Origin: Burkholderia sp. S171
Lineage (GTDB): Bacteria; Pseudomonadota; Gammaproteobacteria; Burkholderiales; Burkholderiaceae
DNA: 64,000 nucleotides
Assembly: GCF_009766085.1 (NCBI RefSeq)
Contig: NZ_LMUF01000017.1
Location: 1-64,000, forward strand
Direction of reading: 5' to 3'
How positions within the stretch are numbered: position 1 is the stretch's first letter; every line of letters starts with the position of its first letter. The position numbers were made by a program, and so were the translations under genes. Positions 32,225 to 59,169 of the stretch are shown piece after piece. The notes under the pieces are model-generated. The model was not told the origin of the DNA and made no database searches. It saw only the letters and a list, made by a program, of their open reading frames with translations.

Positions 32225-32263
32225 TATGTGACGACGGCATACCGTTGCTAGATTTGGCATCTG
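32225..32263 (+). promoter_or_regulatory. Regulon motif copy A (TATGTG-N5-GGCATA-N14-GGCATCTG)
   Basis: Blocks at 32225-32230, 32236-32241 and 32256-32263. It lies 193 bp upstream of the MFS start at 32457, in the same orientation. Block spacing is identical in all seven copies in the window; the first two blocks form a TATG-N9-CATA dyad with T-N11-A geometry. Confidence 0.75.
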
Positions 32264-32456
32264 CACCGCAGTGAGGGAATTGCCGACACTTGAATGGCTA
32301 TAGGTCGCCGCTGTTCATGCGCCTTTACAACGTGCGTCGACTAGTTCATGTTGAAAAGTCACGAAACCGGCGACTCGTCTGATTCTGATGTGCCCTTTAC
32401 ATAAGCTCGGAACTGAAATTTCAGAAACCGGCAGACAATTCAAGTACGGAGACGGA

Positions 32457-33797
32457 ATGTTCGACCAATTGATTGATGGAAGGCGCATAGGCCGCCGGCA
32501 GACGATCATATTTGCGTTGTGCCTTGTTATGCTGATTATCGACGGAATGGACTTTCAGCTTCTTGCCTTCGCGAGTCCTGTGCTGCTTACCGATTGGAAA
32601 ATTACCAAGTCGCAGCTCGCACCCGCTCTCGCCGCCGCGCTCTTCGGAATGTCAATCGGCGCGGCGTTCGGCGGCCTGGCGGGTGATCGCTTCGGCTGCC
32701 GGCGCATCCTGACTCTGTTTGTGGCCGCGTTCGGTATTACCACGCTTGGAACCGCGCTCGCTACGGGCGTTTCCGAACTCGCTGTCATGCGTTTCCTGTC
32801 AGGGCTTGGATTCGGTGTTGCCGTTCCGACGGCAATGGCGCTCGCCTCCGAGTGGTGCCCGCGGAAACGGCGTGGTCAGTTGGTCGTGCTCTTGTCGATC
32901 GGTACCGTGGCGGGCGGCACGCTCGGAGGCCTACTTTCGTCGTGGTTAATCCCCACATTCGGATGGCACAGCATTTTTATTGTCAGTGGCGGCCTGACGC
33001 TGCTTAGCGCGCTGGTTAGCATTGTTTATCTGCCTGAATCACTCTCGTTCCTGGTCAGGAAAGGCAGGCAAAGCGCGGCAGATGCCTGGTTCACACGAGT
33101 GATGGGTCGAACCGTCGCGACGAGCGGCGACATTGCCACTGATGCATGGGGCCGTCCCGAGTTGACAGGAGCCGGCTCGCGCTTGCTATCGGCGGGAAAT
33201 TTGCGCGTCAACGTGGGATTATGGATTGGGATTTTCTCGATTTCGTTTGCTTCCTATGCCTTCATGAGCTGGACCCCTGCGGTCCTGGTGGGTGCTGGCT
33301 TGGGTCTTCTCGCAGCGATCAAATGCACGTCGATCTATACCTTTGCCGCGGCTACCGGCGTGCTTGCGGGCGCCGTCTGTTTGCCACGCTTAGGATCACT
33401 CAGGATACTTATCGGCTCGATTGCGTTGACCATCGTGGCGACCGTCGCGCTGCCCAGCATTCTTTCAAATGGCACTCCGGGCAAAGGCATTGTCGAAGTT
33501 GCCATGCTGTTGGCGGGTTTTGGCGGAGGCATGTCGACATCGACCATCTACGCTCTGGCGGCGATGGCGTATCCCGCTACGTATCGTTCGACCGGCATCG
33601 GTATATGCGTGGGCCTCAGTCGGGGAGGGGGCATATGCAGCGTGCTGAGCGGCGGAGTGGTGCTTGAACTGAGCGGAGCCGGGGGCGGTGTGTTCTTTTC
33701 GGTTATCGCGTGCTTTCTCGTTACCGGCCTGATAGGGCTAACGACCATGGATCGACATATATCTACCCGTGTCGTTGCGCATAGGGTGAGCGTTTAA
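32457..33797 (+). CDS. MFS transporter, aromatic acid:H+ symporter (AAHS)-like
   Basis: A 446-residue, 12-helix carrier starting MFDQLIDGRRIGRRQ, the same N-terminal pattern as its two paralogues at 51166-52509 and 56295-57638, which fixes ATG 32457 over an upstream start at 32388. It has the helix-1 motif LIIDGMDFQLLAFASPVL (the Asp is typical of PcaK/BenK-like carriers) and motif A GDRFGCRRIL between helices 2 and 3. It probably imports an aromatic acid with protons. Copy A of the shared promoter motif lies upstream. Confidence 0.9.
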   Translation: MFDQLIDGRRIGRRQTIIFALCLVMLIIDGMDFQLLAFASPVLLTDWKITKSQLAPALAAALFGMSIGAAFGGLAGDRFGCRRILTLFVAAFGITTLGTALATGVSELAVMRFLSGLGFGVAVPTAMALASEWCPRKRRGQLVVLLSIGTVAGGTLGGLLSSWLIPTFGWHSIFIVSGGLTLLSALVSIVYLPESLSFLVRKGRQSAADAWFTRVMGRTVATSGDIATDAWGRPELTGAGSRLLSAGNLRVNVGLWIGIFSISFASYAFMSWTPAVLVGAGLGLLAAIKCTSIYTFAAATGVLAGAVCLPRLGSLRILIGSIALTIVATVALPSILSNGTPGKGIVEVAMLLAGFGGGMSTSTIYALAAMAYPATYRSTGIGICVGLSRGGGICSVLSGGVVLELSGAGGGVFFSVIACFLVTGLIGLTTMDRHISTRVVAHRVSV

Positions 33798-34143
33798 CCG
33801 TTCACCTGTCCATTGCTTGTCGATGCGAGCCTGCCTCGATGCTTAGCGAGACAAAAGCTGACGTTCGTCCCTCGCCGCATGAGAACAGGATGGAACACGC
33901 GTCGAACACCGCTTCTTCTTAAGCAATGCTTTGACATATGACCACCGACGATATCGCCGGCATCGAACCGGCAAAGAGGAGACGCATGTTCAACGCAAGA
34001 GTACTTCGCGAAGCAACGAGAGAACCCAGCTTCGCCTATGTGGAAAGTAAGGTCCCTCGTCAGTGCGCAGAAACCGTACTAGCTCCCGCAACATTTCTCT
34101 CTGTCGCAAGACTTATGTGCCATGACCATGAAGGAGTGCCGTC
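33798..34143. other. Intergenic region between two MFS genes
   Basis: A short frame from ATG 33987 (RBS-like GAGGAG) could encode 56 residues but shows no family features and ends at the next gene; it is not called. No terminator hairpin was obvious. Confidence 0.3.
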
Positions 34144-38539: not shown

Positions 38540-38588
38540 TATCCGGGAAGTTGGTCAGTCGTTGATACACGCGAACACTGTCGAACGC

Positions 38589-38604: not shown

Positions 38605-38661
38605 ATCAGTGATAACCCTAGGGTGCGAATTGATTGAGCGACCTGGATCCCGCGTTTTGGC

Positions 38662-39941: not shown

Positions 39942-41183
39942 ATGGAGACAATGATGACTCATGCAGCAATCGCGCTCGTCGAAACGAACATGTCCACACA
40001 GCCGGAAAGCGTGCCCAGTTTGCGCGAGTTGGCCGCGCGAGCCGAAGCTCTGCAGCCGTTGCTCAGCAAGAACGCTGCTCAGTCAGACAAGAACCGGCGG
40101 GCCAGTGAAGAGAATATCAGGGCAATCGACGAGGCCGGTCTGTTTCGGCTCATGGTGCCCAAGCGCTACGGCGGCTACGAAGGCACGCTTCGCTCGCATC
40201 TGGAGGTCTCTGCCGCGCTAGGCGAAGGATGCGGCGGTACGGCGTGGGTCGTCGCGTTGATCAACGTGTGCGCCTGGTTTACCGGCCTGTTTGCGCAGCG
40301 GGCGCAAGACGAAGTGTTCGGAGCGAATCCCGCTGCCTGAGTTTCCGGGGTCTTCACGCCCTCCAAGGATTCGCGGCGTGTAGAAGGCGGCCTGGTCATC
40401 TCCGGAAAATGGTATTTCTCGTCAGGCTCGCTTCACGCGGACTGGGCGATGATCGGCGTCATTGAACATGATCAGCATGGCGCATTCAAGAAGCAGTTTC
40501 TGGCGCTCGTACCCATGAGCGAGTTGTCGATCGAGGACACCTGGTACACCGCTGGCATGCGCGCGTCGGGTAGCAATTGCATCGTCGGCAATGAAGTGTT
40601 CGTGCCGGACCATCGTTTGATCGACATCTTGGCAGCCGTGCAAGGCGACTACCCAACCGAATTGAAGGAAGAGGCGAACTATCGCGCCGCCTTCGTGCCG
40701 TTTGCCGCATTGATCCTGACAGGACCACAACTGGGCATGGGGCGCGCGGCTCTCAAGTACGTGATCGAAAAGGCGCCGCAACGGGCGATCGCTTATACGT
40801 CCTACGAGAAACAGACCGATTCCACCGTGTTCCAGATGCAGATCGCAGATGCCGCGCTAAACATCGATACGGCGCATTTGCGGGCATTCCGGTCGGCCGA
40901 TGAAATCGATGCGGCCGCTCAGCATGGCGAGTCGCTCGACTAAGTGACCCGCGCGCGGGTTCGCGCTGACACGGGGCTGATTACGACGCTTATAACTGAC
41001 GCGATCAATGTGCTGTTGTCGGCGCATGGTGCGGGAAGTTTTGCGGAAGGCAGTCCGATGCAGCGTTGGTGGCGTGATTCGAATACTGCGGCGCGTCATG
41101 CCCTTCAATTGCCCGCCATCGGAAATGAGGTGTACGGCAAGGGGCTGCTTGGCGTTGAAAATACGGTCACGCCGTTGGTATAG
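39942..41183 (+). pseudogene. Flavin-dependent (acyl-CoA dehydrogenase-fold) monooxygenase with two in-frame stops
   Basis: One frame from ATG 39942 to TAG 41183 encodes about 413 residues of an HsaA/DszC-like hydroxylase: IRAIDEAGLFRLMVPKRYGGYEG, GGTAWVVALINVCAW, SGVFTPSK, ISGKWYFSSGS, TRARVRADTGL and HGAGSFAEGSPMQRWWRD. It is broken by TGA at 40338-40340, where relatives usually have Arg (NPAA*VSGVFTP), and by TAA at 40941-40943 (SLD*VTRARV, probably Tyr). Both are single-base substitutions without frameshift. The enzyme would use reduced flavin from the reductase gene 2 bp downstream to hydroxylate a phenol. It is inactive unless the stops are read through or are sequencing errors. Confidence 0.88.
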
Positions 41184-41185
41184 CA

Positions 41186-41806: not shown

Positions 41807-41845
41807 TATGCGGAACAAGCATAGCTGTATCGATTGCCACATCTG
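41807..41845 (+). promoter_or_regulatory. Regulon motif copy G (TATGCG-N5-AGCATA-N14-CACATCTG)
   Basis: Blocks at 41807-41812, 41818-41823 and 41838-41845, 133 bp upstream of the E1 gene at 41979. The dyad is a perfect TATGC-N7-GCATA. Confidence 0.7.
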
Positions 41846-41978
41846 GGCCTTCCCGACGATATGGCGCACAGTTTCAATAAGACGGTTGGGCGCTCGCACG
41901 ATTACTGACATGCGCACCCTGACCGCGCGTGCGTTCAGCGGTACCCACTGATCACCTTTACCTTATCGAGCATTCCGG

Positions 41979-44657
41979 ATGGAGTTGGAACCCCTTGAAC
42001 TGTTGAATCTCTTGACCGGCCTGTCGGGCGACGATCCTGACCGCGAAGAGACCTCGGAATGGCTCGACGCGCTGGAAGGCGTGGCGCGTGTTGCAGGCGT
42101 CGATCGTGTTGTATTTCTCATGCAACGTCTGGCCGAGCACGCGAGTCATTTGGGCATTTCGCCTGCGGCTCATCCCTATTCGCTATATCAGAACACCATC
42201 GAACTCGACGAGCAACCGGCCTATCCCGGCGACTTGGCGATGGAAGAGCGCATCACGTCGATCATCCGCTGGAACGCCCTGGCCATGGTCGCCAAAGCCA
42301 ATAAAGCTTATGGCGAACTGGGCGGGCATATAGCCAGTTACGCGTCGGCGGCGGAGATCTTTGAAGTTGGCTTCAATCATTTCTTCCGCGCCGATAGTGC
42401 GACCTCGAAAGGGGACCTTGTGTACTTCCAGCCCCATTCGGCGCCAGGTGTATACGCCCGCGCGTTTCTGGAAGGGCGGCTCGACGAGGCTCAACTGGAT
42501 CGGTATCGGCAGGAGGTTGACGGCGGCGGCCTTTGTTCATATCCGCACCCCTGGCTGATGCCCGACTTCTGGCAATTTCCCACCGGATCCATGGGCATCG
42601 GCCCAATCAGCTCAATTTATCAGGCGCGCTTTCTACGCTACCTTGATCATCGCGGAATCGCCAGGACGGAGCAACGTCATGTTTGGGGGGTGTTTGGCGA
42701 CGGCGAAATGGATGAACCGGAATCGATTGCGGCCCTCTCCCTCGCGGCGCGCGAACAGTTGGACAACCTGACGTTTGTCATCAACTGCAATCTGCAGCGG
42801 CTTGATGGACCCGTGCGCGGCAACGGCCAGATCATCCAGGAGCTCGAGTCGACCTTCACAGGCGCGGGCTGGAACGTCATCAAGGTGATCTGGGGCTCGG
42901 ATTGGGACGCGCTATTCGCGCGCGACCATAAGCATTTATTGCTGCGCCGATTCGCACAGACGGTCGATGGTCAATACCAGACACTTGGCGCCAATGATGG
43001 TGCTTATAACCGTGCGCACTTCTTCGATCTCGATCCCGAATTGCAGGCGCTCGTCGCGCACATGTCGCCGGAAGAAATCGACGGCTTGCGACGCGGCGGT
43101 CATGATTTTCGCAAGCTGTATGCGGCCTTCGACGCTGCATTGAAACATCGCGGGCGTCCCACGGTGATCCTTGCCAAGACCAAGAAGGGCTATGGCATGG
43201 GGCTGGCGGGCGAATCGCGTAACACGTCGCACCAGCAGAAGAAGCTCGATGTCAATGCGCTCAAGGCATTTCGCGACCGCTTTGGTCTGCCGCTCGATGA
43301 TGCGACCATCGGTGAAATGGGTTTCTACCGGCCACCTGAAGACAGCGCCGAAATGCGCTACCTGCATGCGCGACGCGCGGCTCTGGGCGGGTATATGCCG
43401 AAGCGCGCGACCCATGCGTTGCCGGTTTCGGTGCCGCCGCTTGAAAGCTACGCGAAGTTTGCGCTGCAGCCGGACGAGCCGCGCGAGGTTTCGACCACTA
43501 CCGCGGTTGTGCGCCTTTTTACGAATCTTTTGAAGGACAAGGAACTGGGCCCGCGCATCGTACCGATCGTGGCCGACGAGGCGCGTACCTTCGGCATGGC
43601 AAGCCTGTTCCGCCAGGTTGGCATCTACTCGCCACTTGGGCAGCTCTACGAGCCCGAAGACGCCGCTTCGATGCTCTACTACAAGGAGTCCAGGGACGGT
43701 CAGTTGCTGGAAGAGGGCATCACTGAAGCGGGCGCGATTTCGTCCTGGATAGCCGCCGCCACGTCGTATAGTGTGAACGGCGTCGCCATGCTGCCGTTCT
43801 ATATCTATTACTCGATGTTCGGTTTCCAACGCGTAGGCGACCTGATCTGGGCCGCTGCCGACCAGCGCGCACGCGGCTTCCTGATCGGCGCGACTGCGGG
43901 CCGCACCACACTCTCGGGCGAAGGACTCCAACATCAGGATGGCACAAGCCAACTGATCGCCTCCACGGTGCCGAACTGCCGCGCGTATGACCCGGCCTTT
44001 GCAGGCGAAGCCGCGGTGATCATCGATCACGGCAGCCGGCGCATGCCCGAAGCGCAGCACGACGAGTTTTACTATCTGACGGTCACCAACGAGAATTACG
44101 CGCAGGCGCCGCTCGAAGCAGACGCTCATGACGACGTCATCAAAGGCATGCGTCGATACGGCGTGCGCGGTGCGAAGGACGTCATGCCGGCTGTGCGCCT
44201 GCTTGGATCCGGTGCGATTCTGCGCGAAGTCATCGCGGCTGCCGATTTACTCGCCACAGACTGGGACGTCGCGTCCGAGATCTGGAGTGTGACCAGTTTT
44301 TCGGAGCTTGCCCGCGGCGCGCGTGAGCTGGAGCGCGACAGGATGTTCGGGGCAGGGGACAAAGAGCCGAGCCACGTGGCGCGCTGTCTTGCGGGCGGCG
44401 CCCCGGTGGTGGCCGCAAGCGACTACGTTCGTGCCTATGCGCAGTTGATTGCGTCGTACGTCGAGGCGCCGTACATCGCGCTGGGTACTGACGGGTTCGG
44501 ACGCAGCGATACGCGTCCCGCATTGCGGCGCTTCTTCGAGGTGGATCGCTATCACATAGTGGCGGCTGCATTATCGGCTATAGACCCTGCAAAGCAGGCT
44601 CTTGCGCTTGAGCGCTATGACATCGAGGCCGCCCATGGCGCGCCGTGGAATCGCTAG
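41979..44657 (+). CDS. Pyruvate dehydrogenase E1-type (homodimeric) 2-oxoacid dehydrogenase
   Basis: An 892-residue AceE-type thiamine-diphosphate enzyme of full family length. It has the ThDP motif GDGEMDEPESIAALSLAA and NCNLQRLDGPVRGN, preceded by FPTGSMGIGPISSIYQARFLRYL, and the later AGRTTLSGEGLQHQDG segment. No E2 (aceF) or E3 (lpd) gene is adjacent, unlike the housekeeping operon. It may use the cell's common E2/E3 or act on a different 2-oxo acid such as 2-oxobutyrate, as reported for MdeB of Pseudomonas. Copy G of the promoter motif precedes it, and ring-cleavage genes follow. The ribosome site at ATG 41979 is weak. Confidence 0.9.
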   Translation: MELEPLELLNLLTGLSGDDPDREETSEWLDALEGVARVAGVDRVVFLMQRLAEHASHLGISPAAHPYSLYQNTIELDEQPAYPGDLAMEERITSIIRWNALAMVAKANKAYGELGGHIASYASAAEIFEVGFNHFFRADSATSKGDLVYFQPHSAPGVYARAFLEGRLDEAQLDRYRQEVDGGGLCSYPHPWLMPDFWQFPTGSMGIGPISSIYQARFLRYLDHRGIARTEQRHVWGVFGDGEMDEPESIAALSLAAREQLDNLTFVINCNLQRLDGPVRGNGQIIQELESTFTGAGWNVIKVIWGSDWDALFARDHKHLLLRRFAQTVDGQYQTLGANDGAYNRAHFFDLDPELQALVAHMSPEEIDGLRRGGHDFRKLYAAFDAALKHRGRPTVILAKTKKGYGMGLAGESRNTSHQQKKLDVNALKAFRDRFGLPLDDATIGEMGFYRPPEDSAEMRYLHARRAALGGYMPKRATHALPVSVPPLESYAKFALQPDEPREVSTTTAVVRLFTNLLKDKELGPRIVPIVADEARTFGMASLFRQVGIYSPLGQLYEPEDAASMLYYKESRDGQLLEEGITEAGAISSWIAAATSYSVNGVAMLPFYIYYSMFGFQRVGDLIWAAADQRARGFLIGATAGRTTLSGEGLQHQDGTSQLIASTVPNCRAYDPAFAGEAAVIIDHGSRRMPEAQHDEFYYLTVTNENYAQAPLEADAHDDVIKGMRRYGVRGAKDVMPAVRLLGSGAILREVIAAADLLATDWDVASEIWSVTSFSELARGARELERDRMFGAGDKEPSHVARCLAGGAPVVAASDYVRAYAQLIASYVEAPYIALGTDGFGRSDTRPALRRFFEVDRYHIVAAALSAIDPAKQALALERYDIEAAHGAPWNR

Positions 44658-44721
44658 TGACAGGAAAGAGTACCTAAGAAAAGAGGGGCTTAGCAACCCC
44701 AACACCTTGTTGACTGACATT

Positions 44722-44746
44722 CGCCCCGTGCAGACCCAACGGGGCG
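44722..44746 (+). terminator. GC-rich hairpin between E1 and VOC genes
   Basis: CGCCCCGT (44722-44729) and ACGGGGCG (44739-44746) pair perfectly around a 9-base loop. There is no T-run, so it may act as an attenuator or mRNA-end stabiliser rather than a complete terminator. A second smaller GGGG/CCCC hairpin lies just upstream. Confidence 0.4.
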
Positions 44747-44768
44747 TCCACCGGAAAAGGAGACAAAC

Positions 44769-45362
44769 ATGACTGCCACGCAAACGCTTCAACCAGCCGC
44801 GACGGCGCAGCCCGAGACACCCGAGCATGTCGTGCCGTTCAAGATGGCCCACATGGTCTACCGGTGCCGCCAGCGCGACCAGACCGTCGACTGGTATCTG
44901 AAGCTGTTCCAGGCGCACATTGTGTTCAAAGATGACGTGCTGACCTTTATCACGTACGACGACGAACATCACCGGCTTGCATTCTTCAACATGCCGGACA
45001 TTCCGCCCAAGGGTGTGGAAACCGCAGGGGTGCATCACGTCGCCTACAGCTTCCGCACGATCGGCGAAGTGCTCAAGACCTACGCCCGCCTGAAGGCGGT
45101 CGGCATCCTGCCGTACTGGTGTATCAATCACGGACCGACCACGTCGCTATATTTCCGCGACCCGGAAGGCAACGATATTGAGTTTCAGGTCGATAACAAC
45201 GACGACGCGGGAGCCTATTTCCATTCGGAGGACTTCGCGAAAAATCCCATCGGCGTTGAGTTCGATGCCGACGAGCTCGTCAGAATGTGGCAGGCGGGCG
45301 CAAGCGACGCCGAGTTGTGCAAGGTTGGGACTGCGGCGGTCCGCAAGTCCAGTGTTCTATAA
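44769..45362 (+). CDS. VOC-family extradiol-type dioxygenase
   Basis: A 197-residue vicinal-oxygen-chelate protein. Candidate metal ligands are His in KMAHMVYRC, His in GVHHVAYSF and Glu in GNDIEFQVD, matching the H-H-E facial triad of single-domain glyoxalase/extradiol dioxygenases. It likely cleaves a catechol-type ring or binds a similar diol. It starts after AAAGGAGACAAAC and is followed by the FAA-hydrolase gene after 12 bp, a classic meta-cleavage pair. Confidence 0.85.
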   Translation: MTATQTLQPAATAQPETPEHVVPFKMAHMVYRCRQRDQTVDWYLKLFQAHIVFKDDVLTFITYDDEHHRLAFFNMPDIPPKGVETAGVHHVAYSFRTIGEVLKTYARLKAVGILPYWCINHGPTTSLYFRDPEGNDIEFQVDNNDDAGAYFHSEDFAKNPIGVEFDADELVRMWQAGASDAELCKVGTAAVRKSSVL

Positions 45363-45374: not shown

Positions 45375-46238
45375 ATGAAACTGGTTACATTTTCCGTGTC
45401 GGGCAGAGCGCCTTCGACAGGACTGGTAGTAAAAAGCGGGATAGTTAGCTTAGCGAAACATATTGCCGATGCTCCCCCCGACATGATCGGCCTGATCAGC
45501 GCGTGGCCCGACTTCCGAAGCCGGTTGCAGCAACTGGAGGCAAACACCCGCGCCGATGTCTCGCTTGATGCGGTCACGCTGCTCGCGCCGGTACCCCGGC
45601 CGGGCAAGATACTCGGCATTGGCTTGAACTACGCGGACCACCTCGCTGAGTCTGGCATGGAAAAACCTGCCGATCAGTTATGGTTCGCCAAAATGCCGAC
45701 ATCGGCTGCCGGACCGTTTGCATCGATTGATCTACCGCGCGTGTCCGAACAACTGGACTACGAGGCGGAACTCGCCTTCGTAATCGGTCAGCGCTGCCGC
45801 CATGTTTCGCGCGATCGAGCGCATGAAGTCATCTTCGGCTACAGCGCGGCGAACGATGTCAGCGTGCGCGACTGGCAAGTTCGCACCTCGCAATTCATGC
45901 TGGGAAAGTCGTTCGATACGCACGCGCCGTTTGGTCCCTGGATCGTGACCTCCGATGAAATCGCGGACCCGCACGCACTGGGCATACGCACGTTCGTAAA
46001 TGGGGAAAAACGCCAGGATTCGAACACCCGGGAGTTGATCTTCAATTGCTTTGAGCAGGTCGAGCATTTATCGAAGGTCATGACGCTCGAACCGGGCGAC
46101 GTGATTCTTTCGGGCACGCCGGGCGGCGTCGGTGTCGCGTGCAAGCCACCGCGCTGGCTGCGCTCAGGCGATCGGGTCAGGGTCGAGATTGACGAAATCG
46201 GCGCGATCGAGAACGTAGTCCGGCCGGAAGCCGGTTGA
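45375..46238 (+). CDS. Fumarylacetoacetate hydrolase-family protein
   Basis: A 287-residue FAH-family enzyme. It has GIGLNYADHLAESGM, a metal-binding LDYEAELAFVIG (E-x-E), GYSAANDVSVRDWQ (Asp) and GDVILSGTPGGVG. Members hydrolyse, decarboxylate or isomerise 2-oxo-diketo acids formed by ring cleavage. With the VOC dioxygenase upstream it probably processes the ring-opened product. A SnoaL-like gene follows after 24 bp. Confidence 0.9.
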   Translation: MKLVTFSVSGRAPSTGLVVKSGIVSLAKHIADAPPDMIGLISAWPDFRSRLQQLEANTRADVSLDAVTLLAPVPRPGKILGIGLNYADHLAESGMEKPADQLWFAKMPTSAAGPFASIDLPRVSEQLDYEAELAFVIGQRCRHVSRDRAHEVIFGYSAANDVSVRDWQVRTSQFMLGKSFDTHAPFGPWIVTSDEIADPHALGIRTFVNGEKRQDSNTRELIFNCFEQVEHLSKVMTLEPGDVILSGTPGGVGVACKPPRWLRSGDRVRVEIDEIGAIENVVRPEAG

Positions 46239-46262: not shown

Positions 46263-46640
46263 ATGACCGATGCATCTATCCAGCAGGAAATTACTCGACT
46301 AGAACAGGCGCGATGTCGCGCGCTTGTCGAAGCCGATCTCGACGCGCTGGACCAGCTCGTATCCGATGACGTCGTGCACGTGCATGCAACCGGCCACGCC
46401 GACGACAAAGCCGCCTATCTGCTGACGGTCGAAAAGAAGATCCGCTTCCTTTCGGCGACGCGCGAACACCTTGAGGTGCGAGTCCATGGCGACGTGGCGA
46501 TCGCCACGGGAGCATTGACGCAGAGCATCGAGTTGAAGGAGTCGGCCCAGCGCGTGGAAATGCACGTGATGACGACCCAGGTGTGGGCACGCGCGCGCGG
46601 CGCGTGGCAACAAGTCAGTTTCCAGGCCACAAACATATAG
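46263..46640 (+). CDS. SnoaL/DUF4440-like NTF2-fold protein
   Basis: A 125-residue single-domain NTF2-fold protein (ITRLEQARCRALVEADLDALDQLVSDDVVHVHATG ... WQQVSFQATN). Such proteins often accompany aromatic catabolic enzymes as small hydratases, isomerases or accessory proteins. It ends the VOC-FAH-SnoaL unit; ribosome site AGGAGAAC precedes ATG 46263. Confidence 0.82.
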   Translation: MTDASIQQEITRLEQARCRALVEADLDALDQLVSDDVVHVHATGHADDKAAYLLTVEKKIRFLSATREHLEVRVHGDVAIATGALTQSIELKESAQRVEMHVMTTQVWARARGAWQQVSFQATNI

Positions 46641-46653
46641 CCGGAGCGGGCGA

Positions 46654-51165: not shown

Positions 51166-52509
51166 TCAGATCGTCACGCGACGGGGGATTGAAGACGCCG
51201 CCGCGATATGCCTGTTCATTGCAGCAAGGGCTATCAGACCGGCAATCAGCATGCACGCGATGACGCCGAAAAACAGGACCTCCGTCGTTCCGCCGGCTTC
51301 GAGCAGAACGCCTCCTCCCAAAGCGCCAAGAATTCCGCCCGCCCGGCTGACACCCACGCACACGCCGAGCGCGGTTGCTCGATAAGTCGCGGGATACGCC
51401 GTTCCGGCGATCGCATAGATGGTCGACTGCGACATGCCGCCGCCGAAACCCGCCAGCAACATCGCGATCTTGACCGCCGCGGCATGGGTCACGCCTGTCG
51501 TCAACAGACTTGGGAATGCGATGGTTGCCGCCGCGGTCGCCGCAATCGACAGTAGAAGCAGTGCGCGCGATCCGGTGCGCGGCAACAGCACTGCGCACAC
51601 TGGTACGCTGATCACCGCAGAAAAGGTATAGATGGATGTATATCGGATTGCATTTTCCAGATTGAATCCGTCTGCGACGAGAAACGTCGGCGTCCAGCAT
51701 ATGTAGGCAAAGGCTGCGTATGACAGCGTAAAGAACGCGATCCACAACCCGCCATTCAAGCGCAGATTCTGCAAGGAGAACAGGCGCGTGCCGGCCGCAG
51801 TCGTTGGGACATCGAGCGATCGTCGTTCAGCGCTGACCGGCACCGCTGTGGCACTGCCACGAACCATCCGGCTGACCCAGTCGAGGGCCTCAGTTTGCCG
51901 TCCCTTGCGGATCAGGAATACGAGCGACTCCGGCAGATAGATCACACTTAACACTGCGCTGACCAAAGTAATGCTCCCACTGACGACGAAAACGCTACGC
52001 CAGCCGAATGCCGGAATCAACTTTGCGGCGAGCAAGGCGCCGAGGGTGCCACCTACCATGGGGCCCACCGACATCAACACGATCATTTGCCCTCGAAGCT
52101 TGCGTGGGCTCCACTCGGACGCAAGCGCCATTGCCGTCGGCACGGCGATGCCAAAGCCGATACCCGACAAAAAGCGAAATACAATCAGCTGCGACACGCC
52201 GTTGACCGAAGCGCAGGCAAGCGTAGTCAGACCGAACAATGCGACCACCGTGATGAGCGCCCGACGACACCCAAAGCGGTCGCCTGCCAGGCCCCCCAGT
52301 GGCGCGCCAATGGCCATGCCAACGAGTGACATCGCTAATGCCGGGGCCAGTTGAGCCTTGGTAACGTGCCATTCAGCGAGCAGCACGGGGCTCGCGAAGG
52401 CGAGCAGCGCGGCGTCGAGTCCGTCGATGATCAGGACGAGCAGACATAGGGAAAACATCACCTTTTGCCGCCCGCTAATGGGCCGGTCATTGATTGCATC
52501 CTCGAACAT
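51166..52509 (-). CDS. MFS transporter, AAHS-like
   Basis: A 447-residue, 12-helix carrier starting MFEDAINDRPISGRQK, a close relative of those at 32457 and 56295. Helix-1 LIIDGLDAALLAFASPVL and motif A GDRFGCRRALI match the aromatic acid:H+ symporter pattern. Copy F of the promoter motif lies 65 bp upstream on the minus strand. It is divergent from a carboxylesterase gene which has its own copy (B) of the motif. Confidence 0.92.
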   Translation of the reverse strand: MFEDAINDRPISGRQKVMFSLCLLVLIIDGLDAALLAFASPVLLAEWHVTKAQLAPALAMSLVGMAIGAPLGGLAGDRFGCRRALITVVALFGLTTLACASVNGVSQLIVFRFLSGIGFGIAVPTAMALASEWSPRKLRGQMIVLMSVGPMVGGTLGALLAAKLIPAFGWRSVFVVSGSITLVSAVLSVIYLPESLVFLIRKGRQTEALDWVSRMVRGSATAVPVSAERRSLDVPTTAAGTRLFSLQNLRLNGGLWIAFFTLSYAAFAYICWTPTFLVADGFNLENAIRYTSIYTFSAVISVPVCAVLLPRTGSRALLLLSIAATAAATIAFPSLLTTGVTHAAAVKIAMLLAGFGGGMSQSTIYAIAGTAYPATYRATALGVCVGVSRAGGILGALGGGVLLEAGGTTEVLFFGVIACMLIAGLIALAAMNRHIAAASSIPRRVTI

Positions 52510-52574
52510 AATGTCTCCATTCTTCTAATGTACTGTCTTGTTCCGCTAGTGTCGGAACATTCCTCGCAATCCGA

Positions 52575-52613
52575 CAGATGACAAATGTATGTGGGCTATG
52601 CTCAGGTTGCATA
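52575..52613 (-). promoter_or_regulatory. Regulon motif copy F (TATGCA-N5-AGCATA-N14-GTCATCTG)
   Basis: On the minus strand the three blocks are at 52613-52608, 52602-52597 and 52582-52575, 65 bp before the MFS start at 52509. The dyad is a perfect TATGC-N7-GCATA. Confidence 0.75.
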
Positions 52614-52795
52614 AGCGTGCCCTCGGCGGCAAATCGGCATGCGCCGTGCACCAAGAAGCTGCACCTGCGCGACACTCGGACACATCGCAATCACTGTCGA
52701 TTCAGTCCGCGCCCGTTAAATCTGTCGATCCACGGAGAGCATTCGGCACAAGCGTCCGCACATGCACGGAATTTATCGGGGAGGTTCAGGCGCGT

Positions 52796-52834
52796 TATGT
52801 ATTGATGGCATAGCCTGTATGCGTTTGGCATCTG
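52796..52834 (+). promoter_or_regulatory. Regulon motif copy B (TATGTA-N5-GGCATA-N14-GGCATCTG)
   Basis: Blocks at 52796-52801, 52807-52812 and 52827-52834, 199 bp before the esterase start at 53034. Confidence 0.75.
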
Positions 52835-52965
52835 TTGCGCAGATTGCTGGATCGGGATACTGAGGGATGTTCTACGCGGAGCGCATACAGGGTGTCCTTC
52901 GATAACGCCGCTTTTTTTCTCTCCGGATTAACGCGGAAAAAATCGGTTGCGATCTCCTGGCAATG

Positions 52966-53000
52966 TCGAGGTCGTAGTATTTCGAGGTAGTAGTATTTCG
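52966..53000 (+). repeat. 16-bp tandem direct repeat
   Basis: TCGAGGTCGTAGTATT (52966-52981) is followed directly by TCGAGGTAGTAGTATT (52982-52997) and then TCG, about 2.2 copies with one mismatch. It lies 34-68 bp before the esterase ATG. Confidence 0.7.
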
Positions 53001-53033
53001 TGTGACTCCATTTTTCAAGGATGTGTGGCTACT

Positions 53034-54611
53034 ATGAATGTACAAGGAAGCTCATTGGGTGAGGCATGGGCCGAAGAGCCCGGACAAGGCGCTGTCCTAC
53101 AGATCCACTCCGGATTAGTGCGGGGAGCCGCTCGCGATGAACGGGGCGTGCTGGCGTTCAAGGGGATTCCGTACGCGGCGGCGCCTGTAGGCAAGCTGCG
53201 CTGGCACGCGCCACAGGCTGCCGAAGCCTGGTCTGGAGTGCGCGAGTGTGTTCAATACGGCGCTCGTTGTCTGTCCGCGTGGGAAGCCGATCCCGAACCG
53301 GGACCTCCTAGAAGCGAAGACTGCCTGAGCCTGAATATCTGGACGCCCCTGCAGAAAACCGATGAGCGGCTCCCGGTAATGGTCTGGGTTCACGGCGGCG
53401 GGTTTCAGTTTGGATCGTCTGCATCGCCCTCATTCAATGGATCGCGGCTGGCGCAGAAGGGTGTCGTCGTCGTTAGTTTCAACTATCGGGTAGGCGTACT
53501 TGGCTTCATGGCGCACCCCGAGTTGGACCACGAAGCGCCTTCGGGGAACTACGGTTTGCAAGATCAGCTTGCGGCTTTCGCCTGGGTCAAGGCCAACATT
53601 GCTGCGTTCGGCGGCAACCCTGAGAATGTCACTGCGTTCGGCGAGTCGGCCGGCGCTCACGCGATCGGCATCCTTATGTCGTCTCCGCTCGCCGTCGGTC
53701 TGTTTGAAAAGGCGATCGGCCAAAGTGGCGCGTTCTGGGATGGCAGCAATGGTCCTCTCGAATCGTTCGACGAAGCGCATTTGCGCGGCGTGGAGTTTGC
53801 CAAGCGGATCGGCGCCTCGTCCGTTGCCGAATTGCGCGCCATGCCCGCTGAGCAGCTCAACGCGGCGGCTATGTGGAATTTCGACAGAAATCCAATCGTT
53901 GCCGCGTTCTCGCCCAACGTAGACCGACACGTTGTACCTGAGGTGCCTGCGAAGACCTTTGTGCACGGCAAGCAGATGCAGATTCCTCTCCTCGCTGGCT
54001 GGAATGATGCGGAATATTTTCCGTTCCGCGCGCTGGGCCTGCCACAGGAAAGCGCCGAGGTTTTCCGTCATGCAGCGCAGCGATGGTTCGGAGCAGATCG
54101 TTTGGAAGAATTTCTGAAGCTTTACCCGGCGGACACCGACGTGCAGGCGAAGGCATCGGCTGACGCTCTCGCCGGAGATCTGATCATTTCAGAGCAAACC
54201 TGGTTGTGGTTGAAACTGCAGAAGCGCGCGGGCCAGGCAGCAGTCTATGGTTATCGGTTTTCTTATACGTCGCCGTATGTGCCCATCGCCTCCCACCTCG
54301 TCGAGATACCCTTTGTGTTCGGTACATTGACGCCGCAATTCATTGTTGGCGGTAAAGCGCCGCCATCGGACGAAGACCGAGCCTTGTCCGAGACAATGAT
54401 GTCGTATTGGGTCAATTTCGCAACGGCTGCTGACCCCAACGGTCCGGACCTTCCGGATTGGCCAGCGTTCGGAGAGGGCGGCGTCGTTCAGCAACTGGGC
54501 AAGACTGTTGGCCCCGAGACGAACGACGAGCAAACGGTGCGTTTCAAGTTCCTTTCTAGCTATCGCACCGACGGGGCGTTTCCTGCCGCATGGCGGAGTG
54601 AACGCCGCTAA
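53034..54611 (+). CDS. Type-B carboxylesterase
   Basis: A 525-residue esterase related to the one at 27995. It has FKGIPYAAAPVGKLRW, EDCLSLNIWTP, WVHGGGFQFGS (oxyanion hole) and FGESAGAHAIGILM (nucleophile Ser). Starting at ATG 53034 it has no signal peptide, so it should be cytosolic, unlike its relative. It probably releases an aromatic acid from an ester imported by the adjacent carriers. Motif copy B lies upstream and a strong hairpin follows the stop. Confidence 0.9.
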   Translation: MNVQGSSLGEAWAEEPGQGAVLQIHSGLVRGAARDERGVLAFKGIPYAAAPVGKLRWHAPQAAEAWSGVRECVQYGARCLSAWEADPEPGPPRSEDCLSLNIWTPLQKTDERLPVMVWVHGGGFQFGSSASPSFNGSRLAQKGVVVVSFNYRVGVLGFMAHPELDHEAPSGNYGLQDQLAAFAWVKANIAAFGGNPENVTAFGESAGAHAIGILMSSPLAVGLFEKAIGQSGAFWDGSNGPLESFDEAHLRGVEFAKRIGASSVAELRAMPAEQLNAAAMWNFDRNPIVAAFSPNVDRHVVPEVPAKTFVHGKQMQIPLLAGWNDAEYFPFRALGLPQESAEVFRHAAQRWFGADRLEEFLKLYPADTDVQAKASADALAGDLIISEQTWLWLKLQKRAGQAAVYGYRFSYTSPYVPIASHLVEIPFVFGTLTPQFIVGGKAPPSDEDRALSETMMSYWVNFATAADPNGPDLPDWPAFGEGGVVQQLGKTVGPETNDEQTVRFKFLSSYRTDGAFPAAWRSERR

Positions 54612-54625
54612 ACCTCAAGCCGATC

Positions 54626-54647
54626 ATCGCCGGTGCCAACCGGCGAT
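54626..54647 (+). terminator. Strong hairpin after carboxylesterase gene
   Basis: ATCGCCGGT and ACCGGCGAT pair perfectly around the 4-base loop GCCA, 15 bp after the stop. The following CGACCCTTCTTC is only weakly T-rich. Confidence 0.6.
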
Positions 54648-54803
54648 CGACCCTTCTTCATGCTCTCCCAAAGTGAGCATGCCGTAGTAAGGCGACATGC
54701 CTGCGCCGATTGAATTCGGCGCTCTTCGCGTCCCGGTCGCCTAACGCTCGACCGTTGTTCTTGTTCGTCCCGTCAATCAGGTGTTGGTTGCAAATCAAGC
54801 TGC

Positions 54804-54842
54804 TATGTGCTGATGGCATAAGCGCCATCGATTTGACATCTG
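54804..54842 (+). promoter_or_regulatory. Regulon motif copy C (TATGTG-N5-GGCATA-N14-GACATCTG)
   Basis: Blocks at 54804-54809, 54815-54820 and 54835-54842, 308 bp before the porin start at 55151. Confidence 0.72.
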
Positions 54843-55150
54843 TCTTCCGGCGGAAAAACCCCCGACACTTGTCGTGCCGATACATCGGCGACGGATATCC
54901 ACTACGCCTTGAGCAAGACCCGTAATGGCCACTGAAAACATGATGCTTGAGAAGAAGCCTTGCATCCGTGTTCTCGACACTCGTCCTCGCAGAAGACCTA
55001 TTGGAATATAGAAGAATTAAACCGTGTTGCAAAGAAAACCCCGCAGGGGACGAGGTAAATAACAACTCGGCATATCTATTTAAAAAAAATAAGTAGGGTA
55101 ATCGCGGTTCGCTTGCAGATTTTTATACAAATCAAAAAACTGGAGACAAC

Positions 55151-56230
55151 ATGAAGAAAATCGCCTTTGCAGCTTCGATATTGGGGGTTTCGCTAAGTGT
55201 CCACGCGCAGAGTAGCGTGACGCTTTTCGGACAGCTCAATGAAGGTTTCGCCTTTGTCACGAACGAACAAGGCAAGCATCTGACTGCGCTGCAGGATTCG
55301 TATTCCTTTCCCAGTGTGTTTGGGTTTCAGGGCTCTGAGGACTTGGGAGGAGGAACCAAGGCGGTTTTCCAGTTGGTATCGCAGTTCAGCGTGGGTACGG
55401 GCGCACTGATTACTCCGGGAACGTTGTTCAACCGTGTGTCCCTGGTGGGTCTCAGTAACGAGAACTACGGAAAAATTACAGTGGGCAACCAGTACAGCTT
55501 CATGATGGACAACCTGCTTTTTGCAGGCTACGACGGTGCCTACAATTACGGTGGCCTTTATAACCTTAGGCAGGGGCCCTTTGCCAAGCTTGGTATTCCG
55601 CAAAACCCTACCGGCGCCTTTGAATTTGACAGCCTCGGCGCGGCTGGTGTCAACAACACCGTCAAATACGTATCGCCCAATTTTCACGGCTTTTCAGGGG
55701 GCGCTCAGTATGGCTTCGGTGGCGTAGCCGGCGCGTTCAATGCAGATCGGTCGATGTCATTCGGGCTCAACTACCAAGGCACTAATTTCTCCGCTGCGCT
55801 CGCCTATCTGGAAAAACGCTACCCGTCCATGGACAACGGGCTCGACGGCATCCGCAATTTCGGCGCGGGCATCAAGTACAACCTCTATAACGTGACGTTG
55901 AGCGCGTTGTTCACCGATACCCAAAACACATTGACGGGCGCCAAGGTGTGGGTTGTCCAGGGGGGCGCTCAGCGATGGTTGAACGATGCATGGCTTCTCG
56001 GCATCGATTACCAGTACATGAAAGGCAATAGCCAACTCAGCAACAACAAGGCGAATCAAGTTTCCGCCGGGGTTCAATATTGGCTGTCGAAACGCACCGA
56101 TATCTATCTGATAGCCGCGTTCCAGCAGGCGGGCGGCGACGGCCCTGCGTATGCGTGGCTGAACGGCCTCTCGCAGTCGTCTTCGTCGCGTCAGGCTGCG
56201 ATGAACATAGGACTGGCGACCCGCTTCTGA
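55151..56230 (+). CDS. Gram-negative trimeric porin
   Basis: A 359-residue porin. The signal peptide MKKIAFAASILGVSLSVHAQ is followed by SSVTLFGQLNEGF, FGFQGSEDLGGGTKAVFQL and a C-terminal ATRF. ATG 55151 follows TGGAGACAAC. It would admit aromatic acids or esters across the outer membrane; the MFS gene starts 64 bp later and is probably co-transcribed, with motif copy C in front of both. Confidence 0.93.
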   Translation: MKKIAFAASILGVSLSVHAQSSVTLFGQLNEGFAFVTNEQGKHLTALQDSYSFPSVFGFQGSEDLGGGTKAVFQLVSQFSVGTGALITPGTLFNRVSLVGLSNENYGKITVGNQYSFMMDNLLFAGYDGAYNYGGLYNLRQGPFAKLGIPQNPTGAFEFDSLGAAGVNNTVKYVSPNFHGFSGGAQYGFGGVAGAFNADRSMSFGLNYQGTNFSAALAYLEKRYPSMDNGLDGIRNFGAGIKYNLYNVTLSALFTDTQNTLTGAKVWVVQGGAQRWLNDAWLLGIDYQYMKGNSQLSNNKANQVSAGVQYWLSKRTDIYLIAAFQQAGGDGPAYAWLNGLSQSSSSRQAAMNIGLATRF

Positions 56231-56294
56231 TTACGCGCGCTATCACGAGAGTACCGATGAAACAAGACGGAACATAAAGAACGAAGGGGACGCC

Positions 56295-57638
56295 ATGTTT
56301 GACGATTTAATCGATGCCCGCCCAATCAGCACGCGACAGAAGCTCATCTTTGCCGTTTGCCTGATTGTTTTGATCATCGACGGCATGGACGCTCAGATGC
56401 TCGCGTTCGCAAGCCCCGTTTTGCTAAGCGAATGGCATGTCACTAAAGCTCAACTTGCGCCGGCATTGGCCGTATCGTTAATTGGTACGGCGGTGGGTGC
56501 GCTAATAGGTGGATTCGCGGGGGATCGTTTTGGTTGCCGCCGCACGCTGATCGTCATCGTTGCCGCGTTTGGCATGACCACGTTTGGAACGGCGCTTGCC
56601 GGAGGGGTCACGCAACTGATCGTGTTGCGCCTGATGTCGGGAATCGGTTTCGGAGTCGCTGTGCCCACCGCGATGGCCCTCGCATCTGAGTGGTGCCCGC
56701 GCGCGCTACGCGGTCAGCTAGTCCTCCTGATGTCGATCGGAACCATGCTTGGGGGTACGCTCGGAGGATTGCTTGCCGCATGGTTGATTCCGGCGTACGG
56801 CTGGCGCAGCATTTTCGTGGCGGCCGGCGCAATCACGGCTGTCGCCGCGGCGTTGAGCATGATCTACTTGCCGGAGTCACTGGTGTTCCTAATTCGCAAG
56901 ACGCGTCAGGACGAGGCCCTCGTCTGGATCAAGCGGGTGCTCGGCGGCGATGTCACCGCTCTTCCGGTCGGGGGCGACCGGAAGAGACTCGACGCGTCAG
57001 TGCCGGAAGCTGGGGCGCGCTTGCTTTCGTCGTCGAATCTGCGTGTCAACGCAGGGCTTTGGGTCGGATTCTTTGCGTTGTCGTATGCAGCCTTTGCATA
57101 TGTAACCTGGACGCCGGCAGTGTTCGTGGGGGCGGGATTCGACGTGCCTGCCGCCATTCGATGCACGTCGGTCTACACATTCTCGGCCGTACTCGGCGTC
57201 CTCGTTTGCGCAGTGTTTCTACCGCGCGCGGGATCGCGCATGTTGCTTTTGCTGTCGATCGCAATGGGCATCTGCGCCAGCATTGCCTTCCCGAGTCTTC
57301 TCGCAGGTGGCGTGGCGAAAGTCTCGGCGTTGAATATTGCCATGGTGTTTGCGGGATTCGGCGGCGGCATGTCGCAATCAACCATCTACGCACTCGCCGC
57401 GACGGTTTACCCCGCGACTTACCGCGCAACTGCGCTTGGCGTATGCGTCGGCATAAGTCGGGTCGGGGGCATTTTAAGTGCGCTAGGCGGCGGTGTCCTG
57501 CTTGAGGCAGGCGGACCGGGGGGCACTTTGTTTTTCAGTGTCATTGTCGGGATGCTGGTCGCCGGCTTGATCGCTCTTGCCGTAATGAATCGGCATACCC
57601 GCTCGGCCGCAACGCACGCCCGCGGCTTGACGGTGTAA
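56295..57638 (+). CDS. MFS transporter, AAHS-like
   Basis: A 447-residue, 12-helix carrier starting MFDDLIDARPISTRQK. It has helix-1 LIIDGMDAQMLAFASPVL and motif A GDRFGCRRTLI. It is a close paralogue of the carriers at 32457 and 51166. It follows the porin by 64 bp with GAAGGGGACGCC before the ATG, so porin and permease form an uptake pair for an aromatic acid. Confidence 0.92.
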   Translation: MFDDLIDARPISTRQKLIFAVCLIVLIIDGMDAQMLAFASPVLLSEWHVTKAQLAPALAVSLIGTAVGALIGGFAGDRFGCRRTLIVIVAAFGMTTFGTALAGGVTQLIVLRLMSGIGFGVAVPTAMALASEWCPRALRGQLVLLMSIGTMLGGTLGGLLAAWLIPAYGWRSIFVAAGAITAVAAALSMIYLPESLVFLIRKTRQDEALVWIKRVLGGDVTALPVGGDRKRLDASVPEAGARLLSSSNLRVNAGLWVGFFALSYAAFAYVTWTPAVFVGAGFDVPAAIRCTSVYTFSAVLGVLVCAVFLPRAGSRMLLLLSIAMGICASIAFPSLLAGGVAKVSALNIAMVFAGFGGGMSQSTIYALAATVYPATYRATALGVCVGISRVGGILSALGGGVLLEAGGPGGTLFFSVIVGMLVAGLIALAVMNRHTRSAATHARGLTV

Positions 57639-57670
57639 TCCATCTGCACGACGTACAAGAGGCAGGTGCT

Positions 57671-57709
57671 ATGTGTCGCGGGCATAACCAATCTCGATCT
57701 GGCATCTGT
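57671..57709 (+). promoter_or_regulatory. Regulon motif copy D (TATGTG-N5-GGCATA-N14-GGCATCTG)
   Basis: Blocks at 57671-57676, 57682-57687 and 57702-57709, 154 bp before the LigW-like gene at 57864. Confidence 0.75.
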
Positions 57710-57863
57710 ATTCAAGCTGGATACGCTCGACACTGAACCTCCCGTTGATCGAAAAGGGCGGCTTCGTGCAGTCTGCCGTGGCCCGTATAGGTTGAACTAG
57801 CCGGGTCGGCCAGGTGTGCGGACGGAATGAAGGTATACGCTTATTAAACGAGGAAAAGTAGAC

Positions 57864-59033
57864 ATGACTATAAATCGCAACCGAATTATCCATGGGGGTT
57901 CGCTGCTGGCTGCAGACTCAGGGGGGGAGAGGACAGCCGGCGTGCCTTCTTCGCAAGCGACACGAAAACCGGGAATCGACTACCCGCGGATCGCAACGGA
58001 AGAGGCGTTCCAGACACCTGCTTTGAGAGAGCTGTATCGTGAGTTTTCCGCTGGCAGCTGGAGCACGCTCGACGCAAAGATGTTCGGCGTGCAAAACGAT
58101 GAAGAGAGTCCGGTTGCCAATAACCTGGTGGATCTTGATCAACAGCGGCTGAAGCTGATGGATGAGAGCGGGGTTGCGATGCACTTGTTGTCGCTAACTG
58201 CGCCCGGCGTTCAGCTTCTTCGAGCAGGCGTGGCACCGGAATTTGCGAAGCTTGCGAACGACTATCTGGCCGATGCGATTCGCCGTCATCCCACGCGCTA
58301 TTGCGGTCTTGCGGCTATTGCTCCTCAGGATCCGCAGAAGGCGGTCCAGGAGATGGAGCGGTCGATCCAAAAGTTGAAGCTGAATGGGTTCATCATCAAT
58401 TCCCACACCAACGACGAATACCTTGACCTCAAAAAGTACCGGCCAATATTGGAAGCGGCGGAGGCACTGGATCGTCCTATCTACATTCATCCGCGTGCGC
58501 CTTCCAGTCAATTGGCGGGCGCATTCGATCTTGCGTCGATGTCGGGCCCGCTTTGGGGCTTCAATACCGAAGTCAGCGTTCATGTCATGCGCCTTTATTG
58601 CGCCGGCGTGTTCGAGCAGTTTCCCAAGCTGAAAATTGTTATCGGTCACATGGGCGAGGGCTTCCCTTTTTATTTGTGGCGTTGCGATTGGGCGGCTGCG
58701 ATCAGCAAACTTCCTCGTGACCGTTTCAGCGAAGTCTTTCGACGCAACGTTGCCATTACTACCAGCGGCGCGGCGGACTTTGGCAACGGCAACGCTTCTG
58801 CAGCCCCGGCGCTCGAATGTGCGATCAAAGCAGTCGGCGCGGAAAACGTCATTTGGGCGGTCGACTATCCCTATCAACCCATGAGCGCCGGCGTGGCGTT
58901 CATGGACAACGTGATGATCAGCGAAGCAGACCGTGAAGCGATCTATCACCAGAATGCGAGACGGGTGTTTCATATCGAACAGGAGCCCGCGTGTCTGTCG
59001 AAAGCGGCGCATGAAAGCGGGGTCCGCGCTTGA
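57864..59033 (+). CDS. LigW-like aromatic-acid decarboxylase (amidohydrolase-2 family)
   Basis: A 389-residue protein. After a ~40-residue N-terminal extension comes RIATEEAFQTPALREL, the metal-binding Glu motif seen in 5-carboxyvanillate decarboxylase (LigW: RIATEEAF). LSLTAPGVQLL, APQDPQKAVQEMERS, IYIHPRAPS (His), IVIGHMGEGFPFYLWR (His) and WAVDYPYQ (Asp) follow. Together they give the Mn-binding and catalytic residues of the LigW/gamma-resorcylate decarboxylase group. It likely removes a carboxyl group from a hydroxylated benzoate. ATG 57864 follows GAGGAAAAGTAGAC; motif copy D lies upstream and the FAD hydroxylase gene follows. Confidence 0.88.
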   Translation: MTINRNRIIHGGSLLAADSGGERTAGVPSSQATRKPGIDYPRIATEEAFQTPALRELYREFSAGSWSTLDAKMFGVQNDEESPVANNLVDLDQQRLKLMDESGVAMHLLSLTAPGVQLLRAGVAPEFAKLANDYLADAIRRHPTRYCGLAAIAPQDPQKAVQEMERSIQKLKLNGFIINSHTNDEYLDLKKYRPILEAAEALDRPIYIHPRAPSSQLAGAFDLASMSGPLWGFNTEVSVHVMRLYCAGVFEQFPKLKIVIGHMGEGFPFYLWRCDWAAAISKLPRDRFSEVFRRNVAITTSGAADFGNGNASAAPALECAIKAVGAENVIWAVDYPYQPMSAGVAFMDNVMISEADREAIYHQNARRVFHIEQEPACLSKAAHESGVRA

Positions 59034-59130
59034 GACGGAGTGCGTTTTCGAGGAATTCCGGCTTTGCGGTTCGTGGGTGGCGAGTGGGCGATCGGTGCAA
59101 TGGTCGAAGCGGTTGTGTGGCGATGGAAGA

Positions 59131-59169
59131 TATGCGTGCCGGGTATAGGTTCGGCGCTTATAGCATCTG
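59131..59169 (+). promoter_or_regulatory. Regulon motif copy E (TATGCG-N5-GGTATA-N14-AGCATCTG)
   Basis: Blocks at 59131-59136, 59142-59147 and 59162-59169, 113 bp before the FAD monooxygenase start at 59283. This is the most divergent copy, but the spacing is kept. Confidence 0.65.

Follow-up and report, generated by a model that had tools for sequence, protein, structure and literature searches.

A spaced four-block promoter element in seven copies and a predicted LysR-type catabolic regulon in Burkholderia sp. S171

A stretch of 64,000 nucleotides from Burkholderia sp. S171 (contig NZ_LMUF01000017.1, positions 1 to 64,000; here called the window) carries seven copies of a promoter element made of four short blocks. 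The copies precede genes for transporters, a porin and enzymes of aromatic catabolism, and very probably all seven promoters are activated, as one regulon, by the LysR-type regulator encoded at 60989-61942; its binding is predicted from the DNA. A regulon of this kind had been proposed in a first-pass annotation of the window, and the proposal is supported by the geometry of the element, by orthologous clusters, and by the occurrence of the LysR orthologue together with the element in Paraburkholderia sp. D15 and in P. polaris. If the assignment is right, it would tie seven promoters and about eleven genes to one regulator, in an aromatic catabolic island that is rare and perhaps plasmid-borne.

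Seven copies of one spaced element

The first three blocks follow the consensus TATGYR-N5-RGCATA-N16-CATCTG. In the alignment, where column 1 is the first T of TATG, TATGYR occupies columns 1-6, RGCATA columns 12-17 and CATCTG columns 34-39. The spacing of these blocks is identical in all seven copies and CATCTG is invariant; the two bases just before CATCTG vary. Block 1 ends in A in two copies (TATGCA, TATGTA), and the site at 59131 has GGTATA in place of RGCATA. The fourth block, (C/G)A(C/T)A(C/G)T, takes the form GACACT, GATACT or CACAGT; it lies 21 bases after CATCTG in six copies and 20 in the other, and is consistent although the seven sites were picked without regard to it. The distance from the end of CATCTG to the start of the gene ranges from 65 to 308 bp over the seven sites (Table 1).

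On these points the first-pass annotation largely stands. All the copies it listed are present, with the fixed spacing and the gene distances that it gave. It needs correction in detail: the copy placed at 57671 really begins one base earlier, at 57670; the minus-strand copy, read in its own direction, extends from 52613 to 52575; and of the three blocks it described, the first is TATGYR rather than TATGYG and the second deviates from RGCATA at 59131.

How often such an arrangement arises by accident can be judged from the rest of the genome. The three-block pattern was sought in the 8,491,561 bases (78 contigs) of the assembly, at up to three mismatches and with the reversed pattern as control. 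There were 24 matches, against 14 for the control: seven with no mismatch or one, all of them the window sites; one with two; and 16 with three. Given that control count, and since matches at up to one mismatch occur only in the window, only the seven stand out. They fall within 27 kb of one another, near the LysR gene. Within the window, the seven matches at up to two mismatches compare with a mean of 0.00 in 100 dinucleotide shuffles. The annotation had proposed a genome scan with the seven sites, and had named copies scattered through coding DNA at similar frequency as what would speak against a regulon; in 8.49 Mb the seven sites alone match at up to one mismatch, with none in the shuffles and the seven best matches all in the window. 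The dyad by itself is not rare: TATGYG-N5-RGCATA has five exact matches in the genome, four of them window sites, against four for the control, and other one-mismatch dyad places in the 64 kb, at 25570 and 57084/57100, are chance-like. Specificity thus resides in the three-block arrangement.

Run over 101 genomes, a sequence-only profile built from the seven window sites (R1) gave seven matches in that of S171 and, at E<=0.001, none in the remaining 100; the search used stricter filters and limited scoring to the best 46 first-look candidates in each genome listed. The place at 25570 was considered as an eighth site and set aside; it is without CATCTG and scores 19.3 bits in the window with R1, and 12.9 bits (E 0.83) genome-wide with R2, a profile of 11 sites that includes two from P. 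polaris. Also set aside were the genome sites C76:152437 (two mismatches) and C52:98155 (three mismatches), which gave no R1 match. As a separate observation, a monooxygenase paralogue of 53% identity elsewhere in the genome (G000:C64:48266-49840, locus L089) has a TATGC-N7-TCATA dyad about 100 bp upstream, but CATCTG is missing from the expected position; the paralogue may be under a related LysR system.

Another account would make the seven sites a product of chance, or of recent duplication of a single promoter fragment, as their closeness to one another might suggest. Compared pair by pair, the seven sites are on average 0.81 identical in the four blocks and 0.32 between them; over the 60 bases on either side the mean is 0.23 upstream and 0.24 downstream. 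Flanks and inter-block bases that are so nearly random indicate that the seven are not recent duplicates of one promoter; by this measure, the likeness of the blocks reflects selection, not duplication. Together with the empty shuffles and the same arrangement in other genomes (below), this refutes chance and duplication, which retain next to no probability.

Regulator and element in other genomes

The annotation had also called for a comparison of promoters in orthologous clusters, and this turned up the same element in D15 and in P. polaris. The window LysR gene matches a plasmid of Paraburkholderia sp. D15, a strain of lichen source. Megablast of window positions 51166-63200 against plasmids gave D15 as the sole match; tblastn of the LysR protein against plasmids gave seven records, D15 at 86% and six below 50%. 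Identities to D15 for the other proteins are 74% for the monooxygenase, 88% for E1 (of a 2-oxo acid dehydrogenase), 86% for the VOC protein, 82% for the fumarylacetoacetate hydrolase (FAH) family protein, 78% for an iron alcohol dehydrogenase (Fe-ADH), 71% for the porin and 85% for an amidohydrolase (62079-63158).

Two sites in the D15 locus (L038) were detected by profile R1, which was built without them. The first, at 14896, is exact, with block 4 at +21; it precedes a porin pseudogene, then the monooxygenase gene, and is the counterpart of window site 5. The second, at 19022, has two mismatches (CATCTA) and block 4 at +21, and lies between the divergent LysR and Fe-ADH genes. A weak candidate at 5276, with four mismatches and block 4 in place, was not counted. 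The D15 porin frame (L038 15139-16218) contains an in-frame TAG, downstream of an intact site; the frame is absent from the PLSDB gene table, which lists no pseudogenes.

A search of genome contigs for the LysR protein gave one further locus, in P. polaris, at 75% identity. Five sites accompany it, and all have exact CATCTG and block 4 at +21. Against the three-block pattern, L072 7259 has one mismatch, 12152 two, 17142 three, L073 9135 two and 6095 one. The site at 6095 directly precedes the E1 orthologue (88%), matching the arrangement at window site 2. Downstream of 7259 is a zinc alcohol dehydrogenase gene, downstream of 17142 an alpha/beta hydrolase gene, and downstream of 9135 an NmrA-like gene and then the monooxygenase gene; at 12152 the next large frame, 1 kb away, is a glycosyl hydrolase 39-like gene. 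Profile R2 returned four of the five, missing 9135. A degenerate copy at L081 1683 was not counted.

Broader sampling bears on the pairing of regulator and element. Two of 144 genomes of the genus of P. polaris hold the LysR orthologue (E<=1e-100), P. polaris itself and G901, where its coordinates are those of the D15 plasmid. In the same 144 genomes a strict four-block pattern has five matches in three genomes (three in P. polaris, one in G901, one in G822) and no control matches; the strict form is not met by the two other P. polaris sites or by the second D15 site. Among 58 genomes of the window's own genus the pattern occurs in this genome only, five of the seven sites being strict. The G822 match (L095 12022-12640) is an intact four-block promoter before a truncated monooxygenase stretch (139 residues, 80.6%); in the 18 kb around this relic no other window protein, LysR included, was matched. 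Beyond the genus, the LysR protein was found in two of 398 sampled genomes of the family at E<=1e-90 (the window genome and a 49% relative) and in two of 399 of the order at E<=1e-85 (the window genome and a 48% relative). By these counts the LysR protein is a rare one. In the stretches around the 49% and 48% relatives (L055 and L056) no such element was found.

The LysR protein itself is matched by Pfam HTH_1 and LysR_substrate (E 4.8e-20 and 5.3e-27), both over the cut-off. D15 has an identical recognition helix, and P. polaris one that is nearly identical. The regulator's own promoter presents a mixed picture. In D15, the divergent LysR promoter has a site. Autoregulation is then not uniform, since the window has there only a dyad (TATGCGGGAGAGTCATA, 62016-62032), possibly an autoregulatory site, and none was found in P. 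polaris.

That dyad-only region, with one mismatch and no CATCTG, belongs with several points that weigh against control of the whole set by this LysR protein. The 300 bases examined upstream of the P. polaris LysR gene gave no dyad, even with 3 of 10 mismatches allowed, and two of the five P. polaris sites lie on another contig, the other three being on that of the LysR gene; profile R1 finds none of the P. polaris sites in locus L046. D15 has only two clear sites, and none was found before its E1 gene. In G017 a LysR protein of 49% identity, its gene divergent from that of a 62%-identical monooxygenase, has no element in the 19.9 kb scanned; this absence fits divergence of the systems and is no positive test. 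Finally, genomes of this kind generally hold many LysR paralogues, and an unlinked one could read the element.

This last point leads to a second account, in which the reader is another regulator, either the second LysR protein of the window (9032-9946) or such an unlinked paralogue. For the protein at 9032-9946 the D15 stretch offers no more than a 36% relative, and the P. polaris stretches gave no match at the cut-offs applied. The element, on the other hand, accompanies the LysR gene at 60989 in both D15 and P. polaris, and in D15 sits at that gene's divergent promoter. A different reader is thus quite unlikely.

Promoter geometry and a possible mechanism

Fifteen sites can be aligned: seven from the window, two from D15, five from P. 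polaris and one from G822. The dyad has the T-N11-A form throughout, position 3 being T and position 15 A in every site. CATCT is likewise invariant over the fifteen sites, from four genomes, and the G that follows it is kept in 14. Column 33 is G in ten, so that GCAT (columns 33-36) is incomplete in the rest. The sites were not all gathered in the same way. A dyad-only scan brought up the D15 pair and P. polaris 7259 and 12152. The three other P. polaris sites were picked up when all four blocks were scanned together with up to five mismatches, and the pattern that gave the G822 site demanded CATCTG and the -10 bases. In these last four sites, blocks 3 and 4 are thus conserved partly by construction.

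The constant positions of block 4 are A at the second, A at the fourth and T at the sixth place, which weak -10 boxes can keep. The block is placed like a -10 box. Taken as one, it centres the dyad near -64 and places CATCTG roughly from -39 to -34. Start sites would then fall at 32297, 41879, 52541, 52868, 54876, about 57741 and 59203, with 5' leaders 32 to 275 bases long. CATCTG then lies near -37, at a fixed distance from the dyad, but forms no full second dyad. According to a passage in a review (PMC4486848), LysR regulators in aromatic catabolism have their recognition site (RBS) between -50 and -80 and their activation site (ABS) between -50 and -35. The best reading of the element, with start sites that are putative, is the standard geometry of a LysR-type activator. 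The two suggestions of the first-pass annotation on this score, a T-N11-A dyad as in LysR sites and a third block placed like an activation site, both agree with the alignment, the second if block 4 is the -10 box.

A quite different protein has also to be considered for the dyad: a TetR-family regulator (31026-31841), which would use it as operator and repress the promoters. Site 1 falls in the intergenic region between the TetR gene and the MFS (major facilitator superfamily) gene divergent from it, TetR orthologues (75-76%) exist in D15 and P. polaris, and a 17-bp dyad could suit a TetR dimer. Yet no site passed the cut-off on the P. polaris TetR contig (C127), of which 30,000 of 30,875 bases were covered, nor was one found next to the D15 TetR gene. 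In all three genomes the region upstream of the TetR gene contains instead, among a few others, a palindrome with TGTCA/TGACA arms; and a fixed element near -37 combined with a dyad near -64 looks typical of an activator rather than of a repressor. Repression by TetR is highly improbable. The window has a perfect palindrome, TGACAAATTTGTCA, upstream of the TetR gene (within 31842-32220), and this is a possible TetR operator.

For activation by LysR, the mechanism inferred here, with its proposed binding protein, tetramer occupancy, start sites, inducer, substrate and fusion of activation site with -35 box, would run as follows. A LysR tetramer would set one dimer on the strong dyad TATGY-N7-RCATA (T-N11-A) near -64 and the other on the RCATCTG block near -37. 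GCAT in block 3 would repeat the right arm of the dyad 20 bp, or two helical turns, downstream; CTG (columns 37-39) would also form the beginning of a weak -35 box, with a spacer of 18 bp (17 bp in site 6) to a weak -10 box, SANAST. With an inducer of aromatic-acid type bound, RNA polymerase would be recruited to all seven promoters. The regulon would thereby switch on uptake (porin, MFS symporters), ester cleavage, decarboxylation and hydroxylation, and the downstream VOC, FAH and E1 steps would be induced as part of it.

A tentative extension, rather doubtful as it stands, is that RCATCTG is an unusually rigid activation site in which a LysR half-site (GCAT) and the -35 box (CTG) are hard-wired together. 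Inducer-driven sliding is seen in other LysR systems. If the fusion is real and sliding occurs here, sliding must begin from RCATCTG or finish on it, and the on/off state of a LysR promoter would have a readable sequence code.

Alternatively, the promoter might be composite, with LysR on the dyad only and CATCTG bound by a second protein or serving as a promoter element of its own; this overlaps the reading preferred here, since LysR still binds the dyad. CATCT is as conserved as the dyad core (15/15), partly through the selection of sites, and passages in PMC11739112 and PMC12016517 describe LysR activation sites as low-affinity. Against a separate role for the block, the right arm of the dyad is repeated two turns on by GCAT (G in 10/15), and the block sits where a LysR activation site would. 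A composite promoter has an outside chance.

Proposed target genes and known systems

The genes behind the seven sites are listed in Table 1.

Table 1. Sites, proposed regulator and proposed target genes in the window (mismatches are to the three-block pattern; the position of block 4 is counted from CATCTG)
Feature	Coordinates	Strand	Remarks
Site 1, four blocks	32225..32290	+	Upstream of MFS gene 32388-33797; 0 mismatches, GACACT at +21
Site 2	41807..41872	+	Upstream of E1 gene; 0 mismatches, CACAGT at +21
Site 3	52548..52613	-	Upstream of MFS gene 51166-52509 (minus); 0 mismatches, GACACT at +21
Site 4	52796..52861	+	Upstream of carboxylesterase gene; 0 mismatches, GATACT at +21
Site 5	54804..54869	+	Upstream of porin, then MFS gene; 0 mismatches, GACACT at +21
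Site 6	57670..57734	+	Upstream of amidohydrolase gene; 0 mismatches in blocks 1-3, GACACT at +20
Site 7	59131..59196	+	Upstream of FAD monooxygenase gene; 1 mismatch (GTATA), CACAGT at +21
LysR-type regulator, proposed activator	60989..61942	-	Pfam HTH_1, LysR_substrate; ATG at 61930 also possible
Dyad TATGCGGGAGAGTCATA upstream of LysR gene	62016..62032	-	1 mismatch to dyad pattern, without CATCTG
MFS transporter, proposed target	32388..33797	+	Best NCBIfam match aromatic acid/H+ symport family, below cut-off
E1 of 2-oxo acid dehydrogenase, AKGDH/MdeB-like, proposed target	41979..44657	+	TIGR03186 1536 bits, above cut-off
VOC/glyoxalase-fold protein	44769..45362	+	Perhaps co-transcribed with E1
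Fumarylacetoacetate hydrolase family protein	45375..46238	+	Perhaps co-transcribed with E1
SnoaL/DUF4440 protein	46263..46640	+	Perhaps co-transcribed with E1
MFS transporter, proposed target	51166..52509	-	Downstream of site 3
Carboxylesterase family protein, proposed target	52947..54611	+	Downstream of site 4
Gram-negative porin, proposed target	55151..56230	+	Downstream of site 5
MFS transporter	56295..57638	+	Perhaps co-transcribed with porin
Amidohydrolase_2 family, proposed target	57864..59033	+	Nearest solved structures 5-carboxyvanillate and gamma-resorcylate decarboxylases
FAD-dependent aromatic monooxygenase, proposed target	59265..60935	+	D15 homologue aligns from Met at 59304

The MFS proteins are nearest to aromatic acid symporters, below the cut-off of that family, and the VOC protein has only weak relatives among solved structures. 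The gene content suggests that the regulon serves to degrade an esterified hydroxybenzoate. A resorcylic ester from lichens or fungi is a conceivable substrate, an idea for which the only grounds are the enzyme families and the lichen source of D15.

Some neighboring features deserve mention. An acyl-CoA-dehydrogenase-like flavin monooxygenase gene at 39954-41180, of which 409 of 409 residues align to an intact D15 gene (85%), has in-frame stops at 40338 and 40941 and so looks like a pseudogene. The E2 gene of the 2-oxo acid dehydrogenase directly follows E1 in D15 and P. polaris; the window has a gap without one (44658-44768), and the D15 E2 found no match in the 119,930 bases of this contig, so the window E1 may borrow another E2. 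A KfrA-like gene (384-1442) and transposases of Tn3 and IS110 types (19350-23859) suggest that the contig is plasmid-borne or mobile.

Membership of this predicted LysR regulon can be read from DNA with very few false matches, and the 15 aligned sites are natural promoter variants with which LysR use of the activation site can be tested. A literature search, far from exhaustive, found no published description of the pathway or of the element; nothing was found for LysR with TATGC and GCATA, in a text search of a kind that cannot detect spaced motifs, and no account of bacterial orsellinate or orcinol degradation was taken up for the pathway.

Among solved structures the nearest to the LysR protein is TsaR of Comamonas testosteroni (tsaMBCD; PDB 3fxq; E 5.7e-48 over residues 5-288), likewise a LysR-type regulator of aromatic catabolism; the likeness is judged by sequence match, and TsaR serves another gene cluster, presumably with another inducer; the passages covered give no binding site for TsaR. 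Closest to TsaR is BhbR1 of Pigmentiphaga kullae, and the passages on it in PMC12016517 describe a T-N11-A RBS near -65, a putative ABS over the -35 box, and a footprint of 54 bp, from -75 to -22, without inducer. The positions of the RBS and of the putative ABS in this TsaR-related activator match those predicted for the window element. It differs in the inner bases of the RBS (ATA-N9-TAT) and, in those passages, in that one promoter is described, against seven here. A comparative study of Betaproteobacteria (PMC6449761) gives a LysR consensus of AkACC-N5-GGTAT, and no word beginning with TATGC or GCATA occurs in what was covered of its main text. Regulons of the CatR/ClcR/TfdR type, as portrayed in parts of that study, likewise serve aromatic catabolism under LysR regulators and have inverted repeats of T-N11-A form; there the regulator genes are divergent from their operons, whereas the window LysR gene lies tail to tail with the monooxygenase gene. 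The kind of control is therefore already known, and it can be said on solid ground that the regulon itself, as predicted here, is a new example of it.

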